35,205 bases of DNA from Flavobacteriales bacterium (GTDB lineage Bacteria > Bacteroidota > Bacteroidia > Flavobacteriales_D > Cryomorphaceae), in assembly GCA_020200995.1 (NCBI GenBank), contig JAIVHQ010000206.1, forward strand, positions 1-35,205. Direction: 5' to 3'. Shown here piece after piece: positions 1,826-32,822 of this stretch. Under the pieces are notes generated by a model. That model did not search any database. It was not told the DNA's origin and worked only from the letters and a program-made list of their open reading frames with translations. Each line of letters begins with the position of its first letter. Within the stretch, counting starts at the first letter, position 1. The position numbers and the translations under genes were made by a program.

Positions 1826-3511
1826 GTGTGCGGAATCGCCGGAATATGGACCCGAAAGGGAATTGAAAACAGCCACCTCGAAGCCTTGGATGCTTCATCG
1901 GGGTGCATCGCCCGGCGCGGGCCCGACGCCGAGGGAGTCAAAACCTATACCAAAGCGGCCTTCGCGCACAGGCGCCTCTCCATCATCGACACCTCGGCCC
2001 GGGCCAATCAGCCCATGACCGACCCATCAGGCCGCTACTGCTTAGTATTCAACGGGGAAATCTACAACCACAAGGCCCTCGGCGCCGATTTGAGCGTTCG
2101 CTACGGGATTGAGTTTACCACATCGAGCGACACGGAAGTACTGCTCCACGGGCTCATTCACGAGGGCACCGACTTCCTGCCCAAACTGAACGGATTCTTT
2201 GCCTTCGCGCTGTATGATTCGGAGCGGCATCACCTGACTTGTGCGCGCGACCGTTACGGGATCAAACCGTTTTTCTACACGGCCGGTGACGATGCCTTTG
2301 CATTCGGGAGCTCGCTGACTTCGGTTCACGCTTTTTGCCGAAAGGCCGAAATAGACCACGACGCACTCGCCACCTACCTGCAGCTGAGCTACATTCCCGA
2401 CCCGGCTACCATCCTGAAAGGGGTGAAAGTGATCACACTTCTGGCCCGGAGGGAGGACAGCGAGATCCCGGCCTTTTCGATCGGCTTTCCCGACAATCCG
2501 TACTTCGACGAAAGCGCGAATGCCCGAGCGGCTGCGCGCCACATCGGTGTGCGACACGAAGTATTTGAGGTGCGGGAAAAAGACATCGAGGGGGAGCTCC
2601 GGCAAATTTTAGATGCCATCGACGAGCCCTTTGCCGACTCCTCGGCGGTGTTGGTCAACATCCTGTCGCAGCGCACGCGAAAAGAGGTAAAAGTAGCCCT
2701 GAGCGGCGACGGGGCCGACGAGCTACTGGGCGGGTACAACAAGCACCGCGCCCTGCTGAGGTCGCTGGAAAAGGGAGCCGTGAACCGCACACTGCGCACC
2801 TCGGCGCCGGTGCTGGGGCTGCTGCCCGCCTCGCGGAGCCACGCGGTGTTTGACCGATTGCGCAAAATAAAGCGCTACAGCCGCGGCCTTAAGCTCGACT
2901 TTGCCGATCGATACATCGAATGGGCCTCGTTTACACGTCGAAAAGACGCGCAATCACTTCTGCTTCGACCTTTCCCAACGGGGCTGCATCCCGATGCGGA
3001 GGGAAAATTTACCGGACTCGACCCGAGCGATTTCAACTCCGTACTGCGTACCGACATCGGGCTTGTGCTCGCCAATGACATGCTCTGCAAAGTAGACACC
3101 ATGAGTATGCACCGCGCCCTCGAGGTGCGCGTGCCCTTTCTGGACCACCGCGTCGTGGATTTCGTGCTTTCCCTCCCCGCTTCCGAAAAAATAGACAGCG
3201 TCGGTGGCAAAAAATTGCTGCGTAAAGCCTTCAAAGAAGATTTCCCCCCCGGATTTTTCGACCGGGGAAAGCGCGGTTTTGAAGCCCCGCTGCGGCACTG
3301 GATGTGCACGGTACTGAAGCCCGAACTCGACCGTCTGCTGGCGGAAGAATTTCTTGAGGCACAGGGAATTTTCAACATTACCAACATCCTTAAATTGCGC
3401 CGAAAGGCGGTGAGCAAAAATCCCGGCGACAGCCCTCACACCCTTTGGGCCGTCTTTGTTTTTCAGCATTGGTGGGAGCGCATTGCAGCGGGAAAAGTCT
3501 TGGTGAAATAA
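1826..3511 (+). CDS. asnB: Asparagine synthase (glutamine-hydrolysing) family protein lacking the PP-loop segment; probably non-functional as a synthetase or an assembly-affected gene
   Basis: Starts (GTG) MCGIAGIW with the N-terminal Cys nucleophile; RRGPDAEG, NGEIYNH and VALSGDGADELLGGYNKH present; SGGxDSS absent between LKGVKVI and LLARREDSEIPAFSIGF. Confidence 0.85.
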   Translation: MCGIAGIWTRKGIENSHLEALDASSGCIARRGPDAEGVKTYTKAAFAHRRLSIIDTSARANQPMTDPSGRYCLVFNGEIYNHKALGADLSVRYGIEFTTSSDTEVLLHGLIHEGTDFLPKLNGFFAFALYDSERHHLTCARDRYGIKPFFYTAGDDAFAFGSSLTSVHAFCRKAEIDHDALATYLQLSYIPDPATILKGVKVITLLARREDSEIPAFSIGFPDNPYFDESANARAAARHIGVRHEVFEVREKDIEGELRQILDAIDEPFADSSAVLVNILSQRTRKEVKVALSGDGADELLGGYNKHRALLRSLEKGAVNRTLRTSAPVLGLLPASRSHAVFDRLRKIKRYSRGLKLDFADRYIEWASFTRRKDAQSLLLRPFPTGLHPDAEGKFTGLDPSDFNSVLRTDIGLVLANDMLCKVDTMSMHRALEVRVPFLDHRVVDFVLSLPASEKIDSVGGKKLLRKAFKEDFPPGFFDRGKRGFEAPLRHWMCTVLKPELDRLLAEEFLEAQGIFNITNILKLRRKAVSKNPGDSPHTLWAVFVFQHWWERIAAGKVLVK

Positions 3512-5572: not shown

Positions 5573-8026
5573 ATGTACAACGAAGACATTTCGAACGTCA
5601 ACAGCAACTTCGAGAGCTACAAGGAGCGCCTCACAAACTTCAGCAACGAGTTTGAGCCGGGTCTGTTTTTGTACATCCTACGCAAGAACATTATCCTGAT
5701 CATTTCGATTGTGGCCCTGGCTCTGATAGGGTCATACATCTATTTGAGGTACACAAGCCCCACTTTCGAAGCCAAAACAATCATACAGCTCGGCAGCAGC
5801 GACCAGGCAAAGCGCATACTGAATGTCAACCAGTTTTCGGACGATAACAGCCTGCTGAAGGAGATCGAGCTGATGAAATCCAAGCTATTAATAACCCGGG
5901 TTGTAAACCAGCTGCCCCTTCAAATTTCTTACTTCGAAAAAGGTGAGTTTCTCACCGATCAAAAATACCCGCGTTCGTCCTTCATGATCGAAATTGAATC
6001 GATACAGGACTCATCCATTTTGGATGCACCTATAGATGTTCGCTTTTCCGACGACAAGTCGTACAACCTTGAGCTCTACGGCAGAAAATTGAACGAGAAT
6101 GCTGCCATTGGTGAATCTGTTACTAACGAATACTTCACGCACAAGCTTATGGTGGTGGATGCCCAGCACTATCAACGTGTAAGTCAGGGTGAAGTGACGT
6201 TTTACTTCAGAATAAACAAACCATCGACACTGGCCAACCAATTCAGCAGGCAGCTCGACATCAAAATCCTCAACAACACGGCCAAAACGATCGAGATCAG
6301 CATGCGCGATAAAAATGCCGGGATCGCGCGCGATTTTGTCACCACCCATGCCGAAGAATACATCAAATTTGACCTGGAAAATCGGGAGCAAAGTGCCACG
6401 AACATTCTTCGATTCATTGATAATCAACTCGACACCGTGTATCAAAACTTGCGCGACTCGGAGCTTCAGCTCAATGTATACAAGCAGGAGAATAAAATAT
6501 CAAATCTCGATAATCTGTCAGGATCTTACTTTCAGGTGTTTAGAGAATTTGAAGAAGAACTACTTAAACTGGACCTGGAAGAGACCATGCTGGATCAGGT
6601 GCTTCTGACCATTGAAGAGGGAGGAAGCGAAATAGATGTCTACCAACTCATTCCGCTTCTCTCGGGAACCTCTTATGAAAATTCGGTGGCAATGATGCTG
6701 GAAAAGCTGAGAAGCCTGCTCACGATGCGTGAGGAGATCCAGTTTGACATGAAGGAAACCAGTAAGAAGTTTGAAAAAATAAATACCAGCATTGCTATTC
6801 AGCAGCGGCTGATCGTAGAAAGTGTTCAATCTTCGAGGGGGAAAATCAGGTCGCGAAAGGAAAACATCCGTTCGAAAATGAACGAATACGAGAGCGGCTT
6901 CAGCGAGCTCCCCGATAAAGAATTAGAGTTTGCCCGACTTCGCAGGCTTTTCGAAATCAACGAAAAGTACTATACGATGCTGTTGGAAAAGAAAACGCAA
7001 TACCGCATTTCGCAGGCGGGATTCGTAACGGAAAACAGGATTCTGGAACGACTCATCAGCTCGGGCAGCCCCATTTCGCCCAAAAAAGGATTGATCACAG
7101 GGGGCTCGCTGGCCGTGGCATTGCTCCTGGGGCTGGGCATTGTCGTCGTGAAGTATGTGTTGCACAATAAGATTACCTCCATCAAAGAAATCGTGAAGAT
7201 GAGCAATGCCACGATGACAGTCCTCGGCATGGTTCCTAAATACAAGAAAGACATTCCCACATCCCAGCTTTTGATCGATAAAAGTCCGAAAAGCATGATT
7301 TCGGAATCGTTCAGAAGTTTGCGTACCAACCTTCAGTTTCTCACCGATGGTTCGGAGAGCAAAAAAGCCAAGATGATTGCCATTACCTCCACCACCTCTG
7401 GTGAGGGAAAAACCTTTGTGGCCATCAACCTTGCAGGCATCATTGCCTATTCAGGTCAACGCGTTATCGTTCTGGACCTCGACATGCGAAAACCCAAAAT
7501 CCACCTCGGATTTGATGTGGACAACGACCAAGGGATGAGCACGATACTCATTGGTAAATCGACCCTGGAAGAAAGCATTGTAAACAGTAAGGTTGACAAC
7601 CTCGACTTCATCACAGCGGGTCCCATACCACCGAATCCTGCAGAATTGGTGATGAGCAAACGCATGCAGGAAGTGCTAAAGATCCTGAAGACACAATATG
7701 ATGTCATCATCATTGACAACCCGCCGGTGGGCATGGTGACCGATGGAATCCCCATGATTAAGCAGGCCGACAGCCCGATTTACATATTCAGGGCCGACAT
7801 GTCAAACAAGCAGTGTATTCACATGGTAGATAGGCTCATCAATGAAAACAGCCTGACCAAGCTCTCTGTGGTGTTGAATTGTGTGGATGTGGACCGGAAC
7901 AAATATGGCAACAACTACGGCTACGGTTATGGCTACGGATATGGCTACGGCTACGGTCACGGCTACTACGACGACGATAAACACAAAAGCCCGAAAGGGT
8001 TTTTCGAACGCCTTTTCGGTAGCTGA
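5573..8026 (+). CDS. Wzc-like polysaccharide co-polymerase / bacterial tyrosine kinase
   Basis: Two TM segments, long coiled periplasmic region, Walker A SGEGKT, Walker A' VIVLDLDMRKPK, Walker B VIIIDNPP, Tyr-rich C-terminal tail. Confidence 0.92.
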   Translation: MYNEDISNVNSNFESYKERLTNFSNEFEPGLFLYILRKNIILIISIVALALIGSYIYLRYTSPTFEAKTIIQLGSSDQAKRILNVNQFSDDNSLLKEIELMKSKLLITRVVNQLPLQISYFEKGEFLTDQKYPRSSFMIEIESIQDSSILDAPIDVRFSDDKSYNLELYGRKLNENAAIGESVTNEYFTHKLMVVDAQHYQRVSQGEVTFYFRINKPSTLANQFSRQLDIKILNNTAKTIEISMRDKNAGIARDFVTTHAEEYIKFDLENREQSATNILRFIDNQLDTVYQNLRDSELQLNVYKQENKISNLDNLSGSYFQVFREFEEELLKLDLEETMLDQVLLTIEEGGSEIDVYQLIPLLSGTSYENSVAMMLEKLRSLLTMREEIQFDMKETSKKFEKINTSIAIQQRLIVESVQSSRGKIRSRKENIRSKMNEYESGFSELPDKELEFARLRRLFEINEKYYTMLLEKKTQYRISQAGFVTENRILERLISSGSPISPKKGLITGGSLAVALLLGLGIVVVKYVLHNKITSIKEIVKMSNATMTVLGMVPKYKKDIPTSQLLIDKSPKSMISESFRSLRTNLQFLTDGSESKKAKMIAITSTTSGEGKTFVAINLAGIIAYSGQRVIVLDLDMRKPKIHLGFDVDNDQGMSTILIGKSTLEESIVNSKVDNLDFITAGPIPPNPAELVMSKRMQEVLKILKTQYDVIIIDNPPVGMVTDGIPMIKQADSPIYIFRADMSNKQCIHMVDRLINENSLTKLSVVLNCVDVDRNKYGNNYGYGYGYGYGYGYGHGYYDDDKHKSPKGFFERLFGS
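7915..7969 (+). repeat. In-gene Tyr-Gly dipeptide repeat (YG)7-HG-YY
   Basis: tac/tat-ggN codons repeated seven times with synonymous variation. Confidence 0.9.
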
Positions 8027-8574
8027 TGAAAATAACTCCCCTCGACATACCGGCCGTATTGCTCATCGAACCACGTGTGTTCGAAGACGGGCGCGGCTAT
8101 TTTTTCGAAAGCTTCAATCGGTCTGCTTTTCAGTCAGCTACGGGCAACATGCTCGACTTTGTTCAGGACAACGAATCTCTTTCGAAAAAAGGTGTGTTGC
8201 GCGGACTTCACCTTCAGCGCCCTCCCCATGAGCAGGGCAAGCTTGTGAGGGTGGTCTCGGGTTCCGTTTTCGACGTGGCCGTTGATCTGCGCAAGTCATC
8301 ACCCCATTACGGGAAGTGGTGTGGTGCCACCCTCAGCGCAACCAATAAAAAACAGCTCTTCATACCCCCCGGCTTTGCCCACGGATTTGCCGTGCTCGAA
8401 AACGACACGGTTTTCTCGTATAAATGCACCGGATATTACAACCAAGATAGTGAAGTATGCCTCGCGTGGAATGATCCTGATATCGGCATTGATTGGCCGC
8501 TGAAAAACCCGGTCGTTTCCGAAAAAGACAGCCTGCATGCCGGGGCATTTGCTACATTTAAATCTCCCTTTTGA
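8026..8574 (+). CDS. rfbC: dTDP-4-dehydrorhamnose 3,5-epimerase
   Basis: 182 aa; VLRGLHLQRPPHEQGKLVRVVSGSVFDVAVDLRKSSPHYGKW and FIPPGFAHGFAVL motifs; start overlaps the wzc-like stop (TGATG). Confidence 0.93.
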   Translation: MKITPLDIPAVLLIEPRVFEDGRGYFFESFNRSAFQSATGNMLDFVQDNESLSKKGVLRGLHLQRPPHEQGKLVRVVSGSVFDVAVDLRKSSPHYGKWCGATLSATNKKQLFIPPGFAHGFAVLENDTVFSYKCTGYYNQDSEVCLAWNDPDIGIDWPLKNPVVSEKDSLHAGAFATFKSPF

Positions 8575-8580
8575 CACACC

Positions 8581-9350
8581 ATGACGGAAGAAGTATCACT
8601 CATCGTTTTTTTCGTTTTCTTTTTCTTTACGGTCTCGGCCTTTTCGCTACTTATCAACAGCATACTGCTTCGATTCGTAAAAACCCTGGGGACAAAAAAC
8701 CAACCCGGAGCGACAGTTCGCTGGAGTACCCAAACCAAACCCGCAATCGGCGGGCTGTCGCTGTTCATCATATTCTTTATCAGCTTCAGCATGTATTCCA
8801 TCGCTTTTGATGCGCGCGATGTTTTTGAAAGCCGACAAATCATCGGACTGCTGGCCGCGGGAACCATCGGGTTTTTGATCGGCCTCACCGATGACGCCTA
8901 CAATACCAAACCTATACTACCGGTAGTCAGTTTTTGGGGGTTGTGCTCGGCTACGTCGGGGTGCACTATTGCTGGAATGTGGACAGCACCGTAGACGGTG
9001 GGGGCAGTTTTCTGGGTATTGCGGCATTGATCGCCGTTTTTTTGATGCCACTGGCCGACACCACCGTTGTCACTGTTAATCGGTTGCGCCGCGGTCAGTC
9101 GCCCTTCGTGGGTGGAAGAGACCACACCACCCACCACATGTTTTATTTTGGACTCTCGGACGGACAGGTGGCAATGATTTATTGCATCGCATCCCTTCTG
9201 GCAGTGCTGGGCTACTTCATTCTCATTACCTTTGTATCGTCTGCCAATTATTTGGTCATCGGTTTATACATTGCGGTTTTTCTCGCGGTGTTGGCTTTCT
9301 TTTTTATCCTCACGGAAAAAAACCAAAAGCGTCGCGGATACGTTAACTGA
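8581..9350 (+). pseudogene. WecA/MraY-type undecaprenyl-phosphate glycosyl-1-phosphate transferase, internally deleted and frameshifted
   Basis: Frame 1 (8581-8994) encodes N-terminal TMs through GLTDDAYNTKPIL; the adjacent frame (ORF from 8934) encodes TGSQFLGVVLGYVGVHYCWN...LADTTVVTVNRLRRGQSPFVGGRDHTTHH; the middle containing the expected NxxDxxDG motif is absent. Confidence 0.85.
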
Positions 9351-9387: not shown

Positions 9388-10407
9388 ATGCCTACATCCC
9401 CCCTGCCTTATAAAAAAATGTTTTTTTCGCTCCTCACCATTTGCGTCCTGGCACTTGGCTGGACCGCAATCTCAGCTTCAGGCGAGAGAACGACTGACGA
9501 GAAGGCCGTGGAAGAAAGCTACCGCCGGTATTTCAACAACAACTACAAGATTTTTTCGCTCGTACTTCCCGACCAATTGGAATTTGCAGGAGAGGACGTA
9601 CCGCTCTCCCAAATGGATATCAAGGAGCGCCTGGACCGCGAGCTTTTGGTGAATACTTACTGGCAGTCACAAACGCTTATTTTCCACAAGAAAGCGAACC
9701 GCTGGTTTCCCGTGATCGAGCCCATCCTCGCCGAGGAAGGCGTTCCCGACGACTTTAAATACCTCGCCCTGATCGAGAGCGGCCTCAGCAATGTGGTCTC
9801 TCCTGCAGGGGCTACGGGGTACTGGCAAATCAGGAAAGAAACCGCCCGGGAGTTGGGGCTGGAAGTCAACAATGAAGTAGACGAGCGCTACCACGTGGAA
9901 AAATCGACCCACGCAGCCTGCAGCTACCTGAAAAAGGCCCATGCCCGCTTCGGTAACTGGACCATGGCCGCTGCCTCTTACAATCTCGGCATGCACGGAC
10001 TGTCGAAGCAGGTGGATCGACAGCAGGTGGATGATTATTACGATTTGCTCCTTGTTGAAGAGACTTCGCGCTACCTCTTCCGCATCCTCGCCGCCAAAGA
10101 GATTATCTCAAAGCCCTCGCAATACGGGTTTCATTTCAGACCTAACGACCTGTATCCACCTTACAATGTCACCGAAACCCTGATTGAAGGTGCTGTGGAC
10201 AATTTTGCCGATTTTGCCATTGAGCGTGGAATGAACTACAAAGTTCTAAAAACGTTGAACCCGTGGCTCCGCGATAGCTTTCTGACCAATCCTTACAAAA
10301 AAGCCTACCTCATCAAGCTCCCCGCCGACTCGGCCTTCGGCACCCGCGCTTTTGCGGAAGCGGGCGAGGACATCCCCGATTCTACCGTCACCCCTATACT
10401 GCATTGA
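9388..10407 (+). CDS. Lytic transglycosylase (SLT domain, MltD-like)
   Basis: [22 protein letters not shown] and [18 protein letters not shown] motifs. Confidence 0.88.
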
Positions 10408-13250
10408 CAACCTCCGAAATCACACCCATCCAAGCGGAACTCGAAGCAGTTGAAGTACTCGGAGCCAGGGTACACAACCTGAAAAACATCGATGTCACCA
10501 TTCCGCGCAACCAGCTGGTGGTAATTACCGGCCTAAGCGGAAGTGGGAAATCATCACTCGCTTTTGACACCATCTACGCCGAAGGTCAGCGCCGGTATAT
10601 CGAGACCTTCTCATCCTATGCGCGGCAGTTCATGGGAAGCATGGAAAGGCCCGATGTAGACAAAATTTCCGGCCTAAGTCCGGTGATCAGCATCGAGCAA
10701 AAAACCATCAGCAAAAGTCCGCGTTCCACCGTGGGGACCATCACGGAGATTTACGACTTTCTGCGGCTGCTCTACGCCCGCACCGCCGACGCCTACAGCT
10801 ACGAAACAGGCGAAAAAATGGTGAGCTACAGCGAAGATCAGGTTGTTTCGCTCATTGAAGAAAAACTCGAAGGAAAGAAAATTTCGATCCTCGCTCCGTT
10901 GGTGCGCGGACGCAAAGGTCACTACCGCGAACTCTTTGTCACCATCGCCAAGCAAGGCTACCTGCGTGTGCGGGTGGACGGAGAAATACGCGACATTACC
11001 CCCGATCTGAAACTCGATCGGTACAAACTTCACGACATTGAAGTGGTCATAGACCGCCTCGAGGTGCGCAAAGACGACCGCGAAAGGCTTACGTCGAGCG
11101 TGGCCACAGCGATGGAGACAGGCAGCGGCGCTATGATGACAGTAGATTTTGAAACGGACCACGTGCGCCACTACAGCCGCGACCTCATGTGCCCCACCAC
11201 GGGCATTTCTTACCCCCAACCCGAGCCCAACCTGTTCTCCTTCAATTCTCCCTACGGAGTGTGCAACAGGTGCAACGGAATAGGGACTGTGACTGAAGTG
11301 AGTGCGGATAAAATTATTCCCGACCGTTCAAAAAGCATCAAGCGCGGCGGCCTCGAACCTTTGGGCAGCTATAAAAACAACTGGATCTTCAACCAGATCG
11401 ATGCCCTCCTCGGAAAATACGGGCACACCCTGAACACCAAGATTGCCGACCTTGAAGAAGATGTGCTGAACAAGATTCTCTACGGCACCGACGAAGCCCT
11501 GAAAGTTTCAGGACAGCACTCGGGTACATCCTACAGTGTGCAGTACGAAGGCATCATCAACTTCATTACCCGACAGGCCGAAGGCAGCAAATCAAAACCG
11601 CTGGAACGCTGGGCCAAGGGATTTATGAACCGCGTAGTTTGCCCGAAATGCAACGGGAGCCGACTGCGCAAAGAGGCCCTTCACTTCAGGCTGGACGATC
11701 GCTCGATCAGCGAGGTGAATGCAATGGACGTGATTGCCTTCAACGAATGGATCGGCGAGCTGGAAGCAAAACTGACCAAAAGGCAGCGGCGCATCGCGCA
11801 CGATATTCTGAAAGAAATCACGAGTCGGGCGGCATTTTTAAAAAATGTAGGGCTTGACTACCTCACACTAGACCGAAGCGCCAAAACGCTTTCGGGCGGG
11901 GAAGCCCAAAGAATACGACTGGCCACCCAAATCGGATCGCAGCTCACGGGGGTGCTATACATCCTCGACGAGCCCAGCATCGGATTGCACCAGCGCGATA
12001 ACAGGAAGCTCATCGACTCGCTTAAGAACCTGCGCGACCTCGGAAACTCGGTGATCGTCGTGGAGCACGACAAAGACATGATCATCGCTGCCGACCACGT
12101 GATCGACATCGGACCGCTGGCCGGCGAGCACGGAGGACGCATAGTAGGCCAAGGCACTGTAGACGATTTGCGAAAATCGGGCACCCTCACAGCCGACTAC
12201 CTCGACGGTAAAAAAGCCATCAAAATACCCGAAAAGCGGCGAAAAGGAAATGGCAAAAAAGTAAAACTCCACAAAGCTTCAGGCAACAACCTGAAGTCAA
12301 TTTCAGTCGAGTTTCCACTGGGCAAATTTATTTGTGTGACCGGCGTTTCGGGCAGTGGAAAGTCGACCCTGGTAAACCACACCCTCTACCCCATCCTAAA
12401 CAACCATGCCTTTAAGGGCGGAGTAATGAAGGCCCTCGAATACGAAAAAGTAACCGGACTCGAACACATCGACAAAGTGGTGGACATCGATCAGTCGCCC
12501 ATCGGGAGAACGCCACGGAGCAATCCCGCCACATACACAGGCGTATTTACAGAAATCAGAAATCTTTACGCCAACCTGCCCGAAGCAAAAATACGTGGCT
12601 ACAAGGCCGGGCGTTTTAGCTTCAATACTGTGGGAGGACGCTGCGAAACCTGCAAGGGTGCAGGCGTACGAACGATTGAAATGAACTTTCTGCCCGACGT
12701 GTACGTAGGCTGTGAGACCTGCCTCGGCAAAAGATACAACCGCGAAACCCTCGAAGTCAGGTTCAAAGGAAAATCAATCAGTGACGTCCTCGACATGACC
12801 ATTGAAGATGCTCACGTATTCTTTTCGGATCAGCCGAAAATCGCGAGAAAAATCTCAACACTCAACGAGGTCGGATTGGGTTACCTCACACTCGGTCAGC
12901 AGTCCACAACCCTTTCGGGTGGAGAGGCACAGCGCATCAAGCTCGCGTCGGAACTGTCGAAACGCGACACGGGTAGTACCTTCTACATCCTCGACGAGCC
13001 TACCACAGGACTTCATTTTGAAGACATCAGGTTGCTGCTCGATGTGCTGAACAAGCTCGCAGACAGCGGTAACACTGTGCTCGTGGTAGAGCACAATATG
13101 GATGTGATCAAGGTAGCGGATCACATTATCGATATTGGTCCCGAAGGCGGGGCCGCCGGAGGAAAAATTACAGCCACAGGCACTCCTGAACAAATTATTA
13201 AGAAGAAAGGCGGATATACCGCCAGCTATCTCAAAGACGAACTCGCATGA
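10404..13250 (+). CDS. uvrA: Excinuclease ABC subunit A
   Basis: 948 aa; two ABC ATPase modules ([18 protein letters not shown]), two LSGGEAQRI signatures, CxxC zinc motifs; TTG start overlapping the preceding stop (TTGA). Confidence 0.97.
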
Positions 13251-14112: not shown

Positions 14113-15594
14113 ATGATGAAACCGCTTCTTATTTCCGTCCAAATTTTAGGTTTTTTCCTGCTGATGCTTTCGCAAAAGCAAGACATTAAAGTAACCCACG
14201 ATGCCCCTGCCGTGATGAAACCGGGAGAAGAAGCGTTGGTAAATATCACTTTGGACAAGTCGGATGTAATGGGCTTTGCCAAGTTTCAAATCACGCTTGA
14301 TGAAGGATTGACGGCTGAATTGGTGGACGGCGGTGGAGCTTCCTTTACCTTCAATAATCAGGTGGGCAAATTCATCTGGATGGCACTACCTGAAGGTCGT
14401 AAAATCACCATGAAGGTTAGGATAAAAGCAAGTGCCGACGCCTTGGGTAACCTGGAAATCAGTCAGCGATTTTCCTACATCTACAATAATGAACGGAAGA
14501 ATTTTGATGCAGAACCTCACACAATTGCGGTAGGAGAACAGGCTGATCTTAATGCCCTGCGCGTAAAAGAGTCGATGGCTAAAAAATCAGACAACAGCCA
14601 AGCAAACCTTCAAACAGAGCGCACCATCATTGCAGCCGGCGTGAACCAATGGCGTGTCGAAATTCACGTCGACAAACAAGACCTGAGTGGATTTGCGAAG
14701 ATCGAAGAAAACATACCTAACGGCTACACAGTCATCGACCTGAAATCGAGCGGTGCGATTTTCAATATTGACGACAACGAAGTAAAGTACATCTGGTATG
14801 ACTTTCCCGAATCAGACCGGGTAACGGTGAGCTATAAAATGCTCCCTGTGATAGCCATGGAGGCTCAAAAGCCTCAAATCAAGGGAACCTTCAGTTTTTT
14901 GCGCGACGAAGAAACCATTGTTGTGCCCATAGAAGAGGGAGATGGAATCCGGAAGGACGAAATCGCAGCTGAAGTCGCCGAAACAGCACCTGAAACTCCA
15001 ACACCTGATCAGGACACGGCAGACTCAGACAAAGCCGAGACCGGTGATGAGGTGGCTGAAGCGATCACAGAACCCAAGCCTGAATCCGTACCCAAGCCTG
15101 CACCCTCACCCGAGCCTGCACCCGCACCCGAGCCTGAATCCAAGCCTGAACCTGCCGCTGAAACTGCAGAAGCGACGACACCTGCACCAAAAGCAGAAAA
15201 GCAAGAACCAAAGGCTCAACCTCGTCCTGAGCCAAAGGATGGATCCACAGCAACCGCTAAGGCATTTACCGACGGCAACATTGTAGATGTCCCGATGCCC
15301 GAAACAGGGATTTTCTACCGCGTTCAGATCGCGGCGGGAAAAAACAACCTGAGCAAGGCAGTTTTTGAGAAGTTGTACAAATTCGAAGAGGGTTTTCACT
15401 TGGAGCCGGGAGGCACCTGGATCAAGTACACCACGGGATTCCATCAAATTTACAAATCGGCACGCAACGACCGCGAGCGCATCACTGCGAAGTACGATAA
15501 ATTTCAAGGCCCCTTTGTAGCTGCTTACAACAATGGTGAGCGCATCACAGTGCAGGAAGCGCTCATGGTCACAAAGCAAAAGTGGGTACCCTGA
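14113..15594 (+). CDS. Putative envelope protein with duplicated N-terminal domain, Pro/Glu/Ala-rich linker and C-terminal SPOR-like module
   Basis: ORF 14077-15594, likely real start 14113; internal repeat GFAKFQITLDEGL...FNNQVGKFIWMALPEGRKITMKVRI vs GFAKIEENIPNGY...FNIDDNEVKYIWYDFPESDRVTVSYKM; C-terminal FYRVQIAAGKNNLSK...GPFVAAYNNGERITVQEAL. Confidence 0.75.
   Translation: MMKPLLISVQILGFFLLMLSQKQDIKVTHDAPAVMKPGEEALVNITLDKSDVMGFAKFQITLDEGLTAELVDGGGASFTFNNQVGKFIWMALPEGRKITMKVRIKASADALGNLEISQRFSYIYNNERKNFDAEPHTIAVGEQADLNALRVKESMAKKSDNSQANLQTERTIIAAGVNQWRVEIHVDKQDLSGFAKIEENIPNGYTVIDLKSSGAIFNIDDNEVKYIWYDFPESDRVTVSYKMLPVIAMEAQKPQIKGTFSFLRDEETIVVPIEEGDGIRKDEIAAEVAETAPETPTPDQDTADSDKAETGDEVAEAITEPKPESVPKPAPSPEPAPAPEPESKPEPAAETAEATTPAPKAEKQEPKAQPRPEPKDGSTATAKAFTDGNIVDVPMPETGIFYRVQIAAGKNNLSKAVFEKLYKFEEGFHLEPGGTWIKYTTGFHQIYKSARNDRERITAKYDKFQGPFVAAYNNGERITVQEALMVTKQKWVP
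15074..15163 (+). repeat. Imperfect PKPE/PEPA-encoding linker repeat
   Basis: Encodes PKPESVPKPAPSPEPAPAPEPESKPEPAAE. Confidence 0.8.
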
Positions 15595-29596: not shown

Positions 29597-31672
29597 TCAT
29601 TTTTTGAGCACATAGACCACATCCTGTTCGATAAATGGCTTTCCGCTGCCGTCGCTGTAGGAAATAATGTACCTGTACATATCCGAGCGCACCACATTGC
29701 CCTTATAGGTGCCGTCCCATCCTTCCTGGACATTATCTGATTCGAAAATTCGCTCCCCCCACTTGTTGTAGACCTCCATTCGGAATGTATCGAAGTCAAT
29801 AAAGGCAGCCACGGGCTTAAACACCTGATTATCTGGTTGACCGTTGATCACCATGCCCGATGGAATCCACATCACAGGCGGCTGGGTAGCACACCTTATC
29901 ACAGTCTCGGAAGTCGAGACAACTCCGTAATTGTTGGCCGCCTCTTCGGCAATTATTTTATAGCAAAACTCGCCTTCCTCAAACTGAAATTCCTCGACAT
30001 CATCAGTATACACAAGGGTTTCACCATCAACTTCCGCATAATCTTCAAAAGCTCCTTCGGGCCCGACTTTGCGTTGGATTCGATAGCGTGCCACTCCGTT
30101 TTCCCATTCCTGATATGGAGTCCATGTGAGAAAATTGGCGAATTCGCGGGTCTCTGCAATGGCCGTCATGGTCATATTGCGGCCTGTATTTGATTCCCCG
30201 ATTTCCACCCCGCAACCGTCGAAGGCTTTCCACTTATAGCGGTAAGCTAAATTTCTGGTATCCAAATCCCCATCGACGTATATTATTTTTTCTTCAGCGG
30301 TTTGATCGAAGGTGCCGATCTTCACGAACCCTCCCGTCTGCCTGGCGCGAAACAATTCGTACCGCATCCCTTCGGCAGCGGGATCCTGCAGCAGCGCCAC
30401 CTCCACTGTATTGTTGTCCAAAACAGTGACGTAACTGTTGTATAAAAATCCTGCAACCACAGGATAGTCGGTGATCACACAAGCCTGATTGGAAGTGGAA
30501 TTCCGCTGAGATCCCGCTGAAACGGCTTCCACGAAAAAGCAATATTCCCTGTTGGGCTCCACCTCGGCGAGGTAGAAAGTCTCCTCTCCGCTCAGTACTT
30601 CGATCAAAACAGGTGCTCCGCCATCTATTCCGGCCTTTACCTGATACGCTTCCACTCCTTCGGCCCAGCCTTCATACTCAGTCCAGGACACCATGGCATC
30701 GGTGCCACATTCCGAGTATTCTGCTTCCGCAAACATGGTGGTCGCGGTGCCTGCGAAAGAAGCGTCGTTTCCGCAAAGGTCAAAAGCAATCACCGCCAGC
30801 GTCTTCTCACCGTTTTCGCCGGCCCCCGGGTACACGAATTCAGTCGGCTCGCCTTCCTGTACCACTCCCACATTGAGAAATTGCTGGTTCAGAAGGTCAA
30901 TGTCCTGGATGCGGTACAAATTCAGGTCGGGAGCATCCACCGGGTCCCAGTACACAATGATATCGCCGGTCAGGGGGTCCACTTCGGCAGTTTCAATCAA
31001 CGGCTGCGGCGGCGGAATGATATCCAAAAACTCATCGACGACCCGCTGCGATTGCGTTACACAATCGGCAGAGACAAATTCGACATAATACGTCGCAAGG
31101 GTATCATCACAGATTCCGAAGAGGGTGTCGTTAAATGAAGTGACATTCCCTGGAAGAGTCGCACGCACCTCGAGTGGGGTCTCGGGGATTCCGCGGACAA
31201 CCTCAAAGTTGCCCGCGGGCATGGGGTCGAAAGGCAGTGTCCAGTTCAGATCTGCCACAGACTGGTTGAGCACATTCAAAGACAGGACTATATTGGCGAT
31301 AATTACCGTGTTTTCCGAAGGGGCACCGTTGAGTACCGAACGGATGTAGTACCGGTTCACCTGAAGCGGATCTATTCCGGCGTCGGTAAACGCTGTATTG
31401 CCGGGCGGCCCCTGCACATTGATCGAGACAAATCCGCCTCCGTCGTCCTTGAAAATCTCATAGGTGAGATCGGGGTCTGCAGCAGCGGGGGCATTCCAGG
31501 TGAGGGTAAACTCGTTGTCGTCATTCATGCTTCCGCAAAAATCGAGGGGAACCGGGACTTGAGCGCGCACGAAAAGGGCTGCAAGAACAGCCATTACCGT
31601 CATTGCACCCCGCGCGAAATTCAACGAGCGTCTAAATCCTCTTCTCATCAACTCTATTGTTGTAAAACGCAA
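29597..31672 (-). CDS. Gliding-motility-associated (type B T9SS CTD) secreted protein with FN3-like repeats
   Basis: C-terminal DTFRMEVYNKWGERIFESDNVQEGWDGTYKGNVVRSDMYRYIISY; repeated FN3-like segments. Confidence 0.85.
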   Translation of the reverse strand: MRFTTIELMRRGFRRSLNFARGAMTVMAVLAALFVRAQVPVPLDFCGSMNDDNEFTLTWNAPAAADPDLTYEIFKDDGGGFVSINVQGPPGNTAFTDAGIDPLQVNRYYIRSVLNGAPSENTVIIANIVLSLNVLNQSVADLNWTLPFDPMPAGNFEVVRGIPETPLEVRATLPGNVTSFNDTLFGICDDTLATYYVEFVSADCVTQSQRVVDEFLDIIPPPQPLIETAEVDPLTGDIIVYWDPVDAPDLNLYRIQDIDLLNQQFLNVGVVQEGEPTEFVYPGAGENGEKTLAVIAFDLCGNDASFAGTATTMFAEAEYSECGTDAMVSWTEYEGWAEGVEAYQVKAGIDGGAPVLIEVLSGEETFYLAEVEPNREYCFFVEAVSAGSQRNSTSNQACVITDYPVVAGFLYNSYVTVLDNNTVEVALLQDPAAEGMRYELFRARQTGGFVKIGTFDQTAEEKIIYVDGDLDTRNLAYRYKWKAFDGCGVEIGESNTGRNMTMTAIAETREFANFLTWTPYQEWENGVARYRIQRKVGPEGAFEDYAEVDGETLVYTDDVEEFQFEEGEFCYKIIAEEAANNYGVVSTSETVIRCATQPPVMWIPSGMVINGQPDNQVFKPVAAFIDFDTFRMEVYNKWGERIFESDNVQEGWDGTYKGNVVRSDMYRYIISYSDGSGKPFIEQDVVYVLKK

Positions 31673-31771
31673 ACCTCTTCATCTTATTCTTTGACGCCGG
31701 CTGCACTCAAACGTTGCGCAGTCGGTAAAGGTTAATTTTTACACCCCCATCGGGCTGCCGGTCGCTTTTGG

Positions 31772-31779
31772 CAAAGGTA
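31772..31779 (-). promoter_or_regulatory. Possible -7 element (TACCTTTG) for the type B T9SS cargo gene
   Basis: Exact TAnnTTTG match about 100 nt upstream of the start at 31672. Confidence 0.35.
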
Positions 31780-31880
31780 AGAAGCCTTTGTCCGGGAGGA
31801 TTGGATTTCAGAATCAAATGCACGGATTTAAAGAAGTTTGACAATTTTAACAACATAGATTAGCGAGACGGCCCCTGTTT

Positions 31881-32822
31881 CTATGCCAATGGCCGCATGC
31901 GCAGCCGGGCTTCTTCATATTCGGCGAGCAACCGATCTACAATTGTGGCAACGGGAACCACATCGCCAATCAACCCTGCCACCTGACCTATTTCGAGCTC
32001 ACCTTCGTTGAGGTCACCCTCAAACATGCCCTTCTTTGCGCGGCCCTTGCCGAGCAAGGAGCGCAATTCTTCGGCAGTTGCACCACGGCCGTAGGCAGCC
32101 CGCACCGATTCGTAAAAGCCGTTTTTGAGCAAACGCACGGGCGTCACCTCCTTCAGGGTAAGCAAAGTATCACCCTCGCCGGCAGATGCCACTGCCGATT
32201 TAAAATTCAGGTGCGCCGAACTTTCTGTCGAAGCCACGAACCGCGATCCGATCTGCACACCGTCGGCACCGAGGGCGATGGCTGCGAGCATGGCACCACC
32301 TGTCGCTATCCCGCCCGCAGCTGCAAGCGGCAAATCCACTGCCGCCCGCACTTGTGGCACCAGGCACATGGTGGTGGTCTCCTCACGGCCATTGTGGCCG
32401 CCTGCCTCAAAACCCTCGCAAATGATGCCATCCACACCGGCCGCAGCTGCCTTTTCGGCAAATTTGGCACTGCTCACCACATGGAGCACCGTGATGCCGG
32501 CGTCTTTTAGCCGGGCTGTGTGGGTGCGCGGATTTCCCGCCGAGGTGATCACCACAGGCACCTTGCCCAAAATTATTTCATCAATCTGCCGCTCGATGTC
32601 CGGGTACAAAAGCGGTACGTTGACCCCGAATGGCAGGTCGGTCGCCTCCTTGCACTTTGCAATGTGCTGCCTGAGCACCTCGGGATACATGCTTCCCGAC
32701 CCGATCACCCCGAGAATACCCGCATTCGACGATGCCGACGCCAACTCCCATCCGCTGCACCACACCATGCCCGCCTGTATTACGGGGTACTTGATATTGA
32801 GAAGGTCGGTCAGTGAGTTCAA
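31881..32822 (-). CDS. Nitronate monooxygenase / FabK-like flavoprotein
   Basis: IKYPVIQAGM, GIICEGFEAGGHNG, AAGGIATGGAMLAAIALGADGVQIGSRF motifs. Confidence 0.9.
   Translation of the reverse strand: MNSLTDLLNIKYPVIQAGMVWCSGWELASASSNAGILGVIGSGSMYPEVLRQHIAKCKEATDLPFGVNVPLLYPDIERQIDEIILGKVPVVITSAGNPRTHTARLKDAGITVLHVVSSAKFAEKAAAAGVDGIICEGFEAGGHNGREETTTMCLVPQVRAAVDLPLAAAGGIATGGAMLAAIALGADGVQIGSRFVASTESSAHLNFKSAVASAGEGDTLLTLKEVTPVRLLKNGFYESVRAAYGRGATAEELRSLLGKGRAKKGMFEGDLNEGELEIGQVAGLIGDVVPVATIVDRLLAEYEEARLRMRPLA

Follow-up and report, generated by a model that had tools for sequence, protein, structure and literature searches.

An internal gap in a WecA-like transferase gene of a draft Flavobacteriales genome is very probably an assembly artefact

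Within the 35,205-nucleotide stretch of DNA analysed here (the window; contig JAIVHQ010000206.1 of assembly GCA_020200995.1, forward strand), the two ends of one WecA-like gene can be read in different frames at positions 8581–9350. Has the organism lost the catalytic middle of this transferase, or is the middle lacking from the sequence record alone? An initial annotation had described a WecA-like gene of about 256 remaining codons where roughly 370 are expected, with its catalytic middle missing and a frameshift at a junction near 8913–8919, and had held that, if the deletion is real, initiation of a lipid-linked glycan is lost or supplied elsewhere. A literature search returned no direct statement about this genome, and a paper on a soda-lake MAG set had no direct bearing on the question.

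Results

The frame that runs from 8581 passes through GLTDDAYNTKPIL up to about 8919, and TGSQFLGVVLGYVGVHYCWN carries on in another frame to a stop at 9350, giving a span of 770 bp or about 256 codons. In blastn against the closest relative, G001 (L004/C105), the high-scoring segments stop at 8912 and resume at 8918, an interval over which the subject advances by 324 bases, and DNA alignment gives a net loss of 319 bp. Since 319 is not a multiple of three, the frame shifts at the junction. The same block is seen to be absent from the window gene in a MAFFT alignment with G002, G003, G004 and G005. The record contains no N at the junction and flags no gap there.

The window fragments align to both ends of the G001 orthologue, a member of the WecA/MraY-type family (PF00953, Glycos_transf_4; nearest NCBIfam model TIGR02380). 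The window copy differs from that family in its frameshift and in the motifs that it lacks. Among the Asp-rich cytoplasmic motifs, DDAYNT is kept, whereas NMLDNMDG, with the segment containing NSINMLDNMDG, and the Asp of MGDTGSQFLG, with FFNWHPSSMYMGD that carries this Asp before TGSQFLG, are gone at 8913–8918. Neither fragment reached PF00953 at E ≤ 0.001 in a profile search, and a PF00953 search of the organism's own genome gave matches only on contigs C17 and C366, the window not being among them. A query with the full G001 protein retrieved nothing from the assembly but the parts on either side of the gap and some distant paralogues; the missing segment occurs nowhere else in it, which excludes its having been moved to another contig. 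As a feature of the record the gap is genuine, and it goes far beyond what chance would give.

Table 1. Positions and properties of the genes and dropout junctions in the window and on two other contigs of the same assembly
Feature	Position	Strand	Details
asnB-like glutamine-hydrolysing amidotransferase/synthetase, 561 aa, in-frame 204-bp dropout	window 1826..3511	+	TIGR01536 matched in two pieces
asnB dropout junction	window 2421..2430	+	tblastn segments abut at 2428|2429, 68 G001 residues skipped
Wzz/GNVR/BY-kinase-like polysaccharide co-polymerase, intact	window 5573..8026	+	PF02706, PF13807, PF13614
RmlC-type dTDP-4-dehydrorhamnose 3,5-epimerase, intact	window 8026..8574	+	PF00908, E 4.7e-71
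WecA-like (PF00953-type) polyprenyl-phosphate sugar-1-phosphate transferase, N-terminal part, to GLTDDAYNTKP	window 8581..8919	+	90%/77%/67% protein identity to intact orthologues in G001/G002/G003
Sharp wecA junction with frame shift, 319 bp missing relative to G001	window 8913..8918	+	blastn HSPs and MAFFT alignment
C-terminal part of the wecA-like gene, other frame, TGSQFLG... to stop	window 8919..9350	+	76% identity to G001 protein residues 229–371
thyA dropout	C13 (L049) ~2117		147 bp, in frame; catalytic PPCH segment lost
atpG dropout	C12 (L048) ~4102		357 bp, in frame; 119 residues lost
atpF dropout	C12 (L048) ~7210		116 bp; start and membrane segment lost

Comparison with sister genomes, a check suggested in the initial annotation, showed the wecA frame to be uninterrupted in all same-family relatives searched (362–391 codons); G001 and G002 belong to the same genus as the organism and G003 to the same family. 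The intact G001 orthologue (372 codons) matches PF00953 over residues 98–244 (97 bits) and aligns with TIGR02380 (ECA_wecA) over residues 29–363, below the cut-off of that model. The regions flanking wecA are collinear in G001, G002 and G003, in agreement with orthology and a shared local gene order. The initial annotation was therefore right in its description of the gene: its identity, from the similarity to the three intact orthologues (Table 1), the loss of both catalytic motifs within the 319-bp gap, the shift of frame, the place of the break, and the remaining length, which falls short of every relative's frame.

The window holds a further gene of this kind. The asnB-like gene, which encodes an asparagine-synthase-like amidotransferase and lies about 6.5 kb from wecA, is broken but would pass a gene caller as whole, as its loss is in frame; like wecA, it is without the part needed to work. 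The corresponding frames in relatives measure 620–673 aa (620–626 in most) vs. 561 in the window. The loss falls between GVK and VITLLAR, and the lost segment encodes the SGGxDS ATP loop in 5/5 relatives examined (SGGLDSS loop). Elsewhere in the window, a place near 3490 is about 108 bp shorter than in G001, which could be natural, and the stretch 31,570–31,906, around the intergenic 31672–31881, falls about 250 bp short of its G001 counterpart, either naturally or through another dropout.

The genome that contains the window (G000) is a draft in 436 contigs with 81% completeness, and these contigs include N runs of 4, 7, 70, 139 and 208 bases. Our sample comprised the window contig, 22 other contigs of G000 (one of them, C3, all N) and the matching stretches of G001 and G002. 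In G000 it covered about 270 kb, within which roughly 120 kb of coding sequence was comparable with G001. Searches by tblastn with G001 open reading frames as queries (39,503 aligned aa) revealed 7 sharp deletions of 64–615 bp and 0 insertions in G000. These correspond to six distinct places, the 64-bp case on C21 being an opposite-strand frame over the locus of the 85-bp deletion. One of the six may be natural: the C13 deletion of about 76–85 bp, which is located in a diverged stretch. Between G001 and G002 there were 0 deletions and 0 insertions in both directions (33,929 and 35,505 aa). At equal rates, the finding of all seven deletions in G000 has P of about 8e-4, a rough value given the double count.

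DNA-level chaining added three further dropout places, in thyA, atpG and atpF (Table 1), and a histidine kinase is also among the affected genes of the assembly. For thyA and atpG, the orthologues at the corresponding places in G001 are intact; no second copy of either was found in the assembly, although this draft is incomplete and one could lie outside it. The missing thyA segment occurs nowhere else in the assembly. The same defect is thus shared by unrelated and by essential single-copy genes of G000 and is absent from its relatives.

No dropout junction shares more than about 3 nt, and no copies of the junction flanks were found elsewhere in the fetched contigs, which together argue against repeat recombination and against collapse at shared k-mers; repeat-mediated and slipped-strand deletion are excluded on the same grounds. 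The G+C content of the missing segments (46–57%) is like that of their flanks, giving no support to extreme base composition as the cause. The N runs of 4–208 bases that remain show that the assembly was not stripped of every N.

A direct trace of misjoining was found on C12 (L048), not at the wecA junction itself. A 134-bp block at 9824–9957, a 99% copy of 10395–10528, sits between a four-N run (9958–9961) and the 615-bp dropout within one gene. A piece of this gene has been placed on the wrong side of the gap, so the pipeline did make wrong joins at gaps.

Two repeat-like features were observed on the sampled contigs. A MITE-like element of about 270–340 bp with inverted ends AACCTGAGTTCGATT...AATCGAACTCAGGTT occurs on C21 (L056) at 7650–7985 and 12525–12800, the two copies being oppositely oriented and separated by about 5 kb; 127 bp of it recur at several sites in G001 and G002 (79–89% identity), and it has no match in Rfam. 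Compared with G001, C12 (L048) carries about 215 bp of inserted sequence at about 14680–14905. This insertion is strongly foldable and is a dispersed repeat, parts of which recur at numerous sites in G001 and G002 (80–91%).

A search for a second intact initiator, likewise suggested in the initial annotation, was successful. C17 encodes an intact 373-aa WecA-like protein (PF00953, 133.6 bits; TIGR02380, 146.8 bits, below cut-off), C366 encodes an MraY that scores above the cut-off of TIGR00445, and the assembly contains four matches to the initiator family PF02397. By mraY on C366 (L020; minus strand, reverse-strand coordinates 2332–3377), between murD and an FtsW-like gene, lie two short tandem proteins of about 175 aa. 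Their resemblance to Mur ligases is confined to the C-terminal ligase domain (PF02875), for which one scores just above the cut-off and the other below it.

Discussion

We conclude with high confidence that the gap in wecA arose in the draft assembly and does not reflect a loss in the organism. Clean-cut gaps recur in other genes, including single-copy essential ones, and this makes an assembly error in wecA almost certain; an organism in which thymidylate synthase (thyA), the ATP synthase gamma and b subunits, asparagine synthetase (asnB) and WecA are all cleanly cut is not plausible. The dropouts are like local draft-assembly errors (collapsed or abutted gaps) in extending over unrelated genes, in the presence of N gaps and in the misplaced duplicate beside one gap, and no feature was found that differs from such errors. 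About 319 bp of wecA would have been left unassembled and its two flanking pieces abutted without Ns. As the simplest account, we infer that contig pieces beside uncovered stretches were ordered by read pairs and then abutted across the coverage gap with a wrong gap estimate; paired short reads can span sizes of about 85–615 bp.

The failing step may also have been an earlier one, if library preparation or whole-genome amplification produced chimeric molecules that linked distant points of the genome and that the assembler took up where coverage was low. Numerous sharp deletions, each a few hundred bp long and with no long repeats, would then be expected, and the 134-bp misplaced duplicate would fit too, but nothing in the data marks the sample as amplified, and scaffolding is indicated, at least in part, by the N gaps. 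Among the artefactual origins we rate this one as rather unlikely, and it would leave the gap an artefact, only the failing step being different. A true deletion that inactivated wecA in the lineage, for example by selection for surface-polysaccharide loss, with initiation by the C17 WecA-like protein or the PF02397 initiators, would agree with the gap in the record, with the other intact initiators in the genome and with the loss-of-function mutations that surface-polysaccharide loci suffer in nature. It is nevertheless very improbable in view of the like lesions in unrelated, essential single-copy genes of this assembly and their absence from relatives, the junctions, which have no repeats and no more than about 3 nt of microhomology, and the otherwise intact and well-conserved neighbours at the locus. 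We give equally little credence to a mixed case, in which a real and recent deletion of wecA (perhaps also of asnB), buffered by the C17 paralogue and the PF02397 initiators, lies atop an error-prone assembly. Draft assemblies of mixed populations can switch between strains, and the deleted version might then be a real minority variant merged with the majority population; this is extremely improbable, as it needs many independent variants, with thyA, atpG and atpF lost, in one population.

An assembly error in wecA carries a warning for the use of this genome, namely that catalytic-core deletions in this draft are most likely assembly-made. The wecA case is easy to spot by its frame shift; the in-frame cases (asnB, thyA and atpG) slip past gene callers. 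Claims of pseudogenes or gene loss from this draft need reads first. The suggestion that glycan initiation is lost or supplied elsewhere is unsupported, given the similar dropouts in thyA, atpG, atpF and asnB. In the organism, we infer, the gene most probably encodes an intact WecA-like transferase of an exopolysaccharide/O-antigen locus, and with the C17 WecA-like protein, MraY and four PF02397 matches in the assembly, even a true loss of wecA would probably be buffered.
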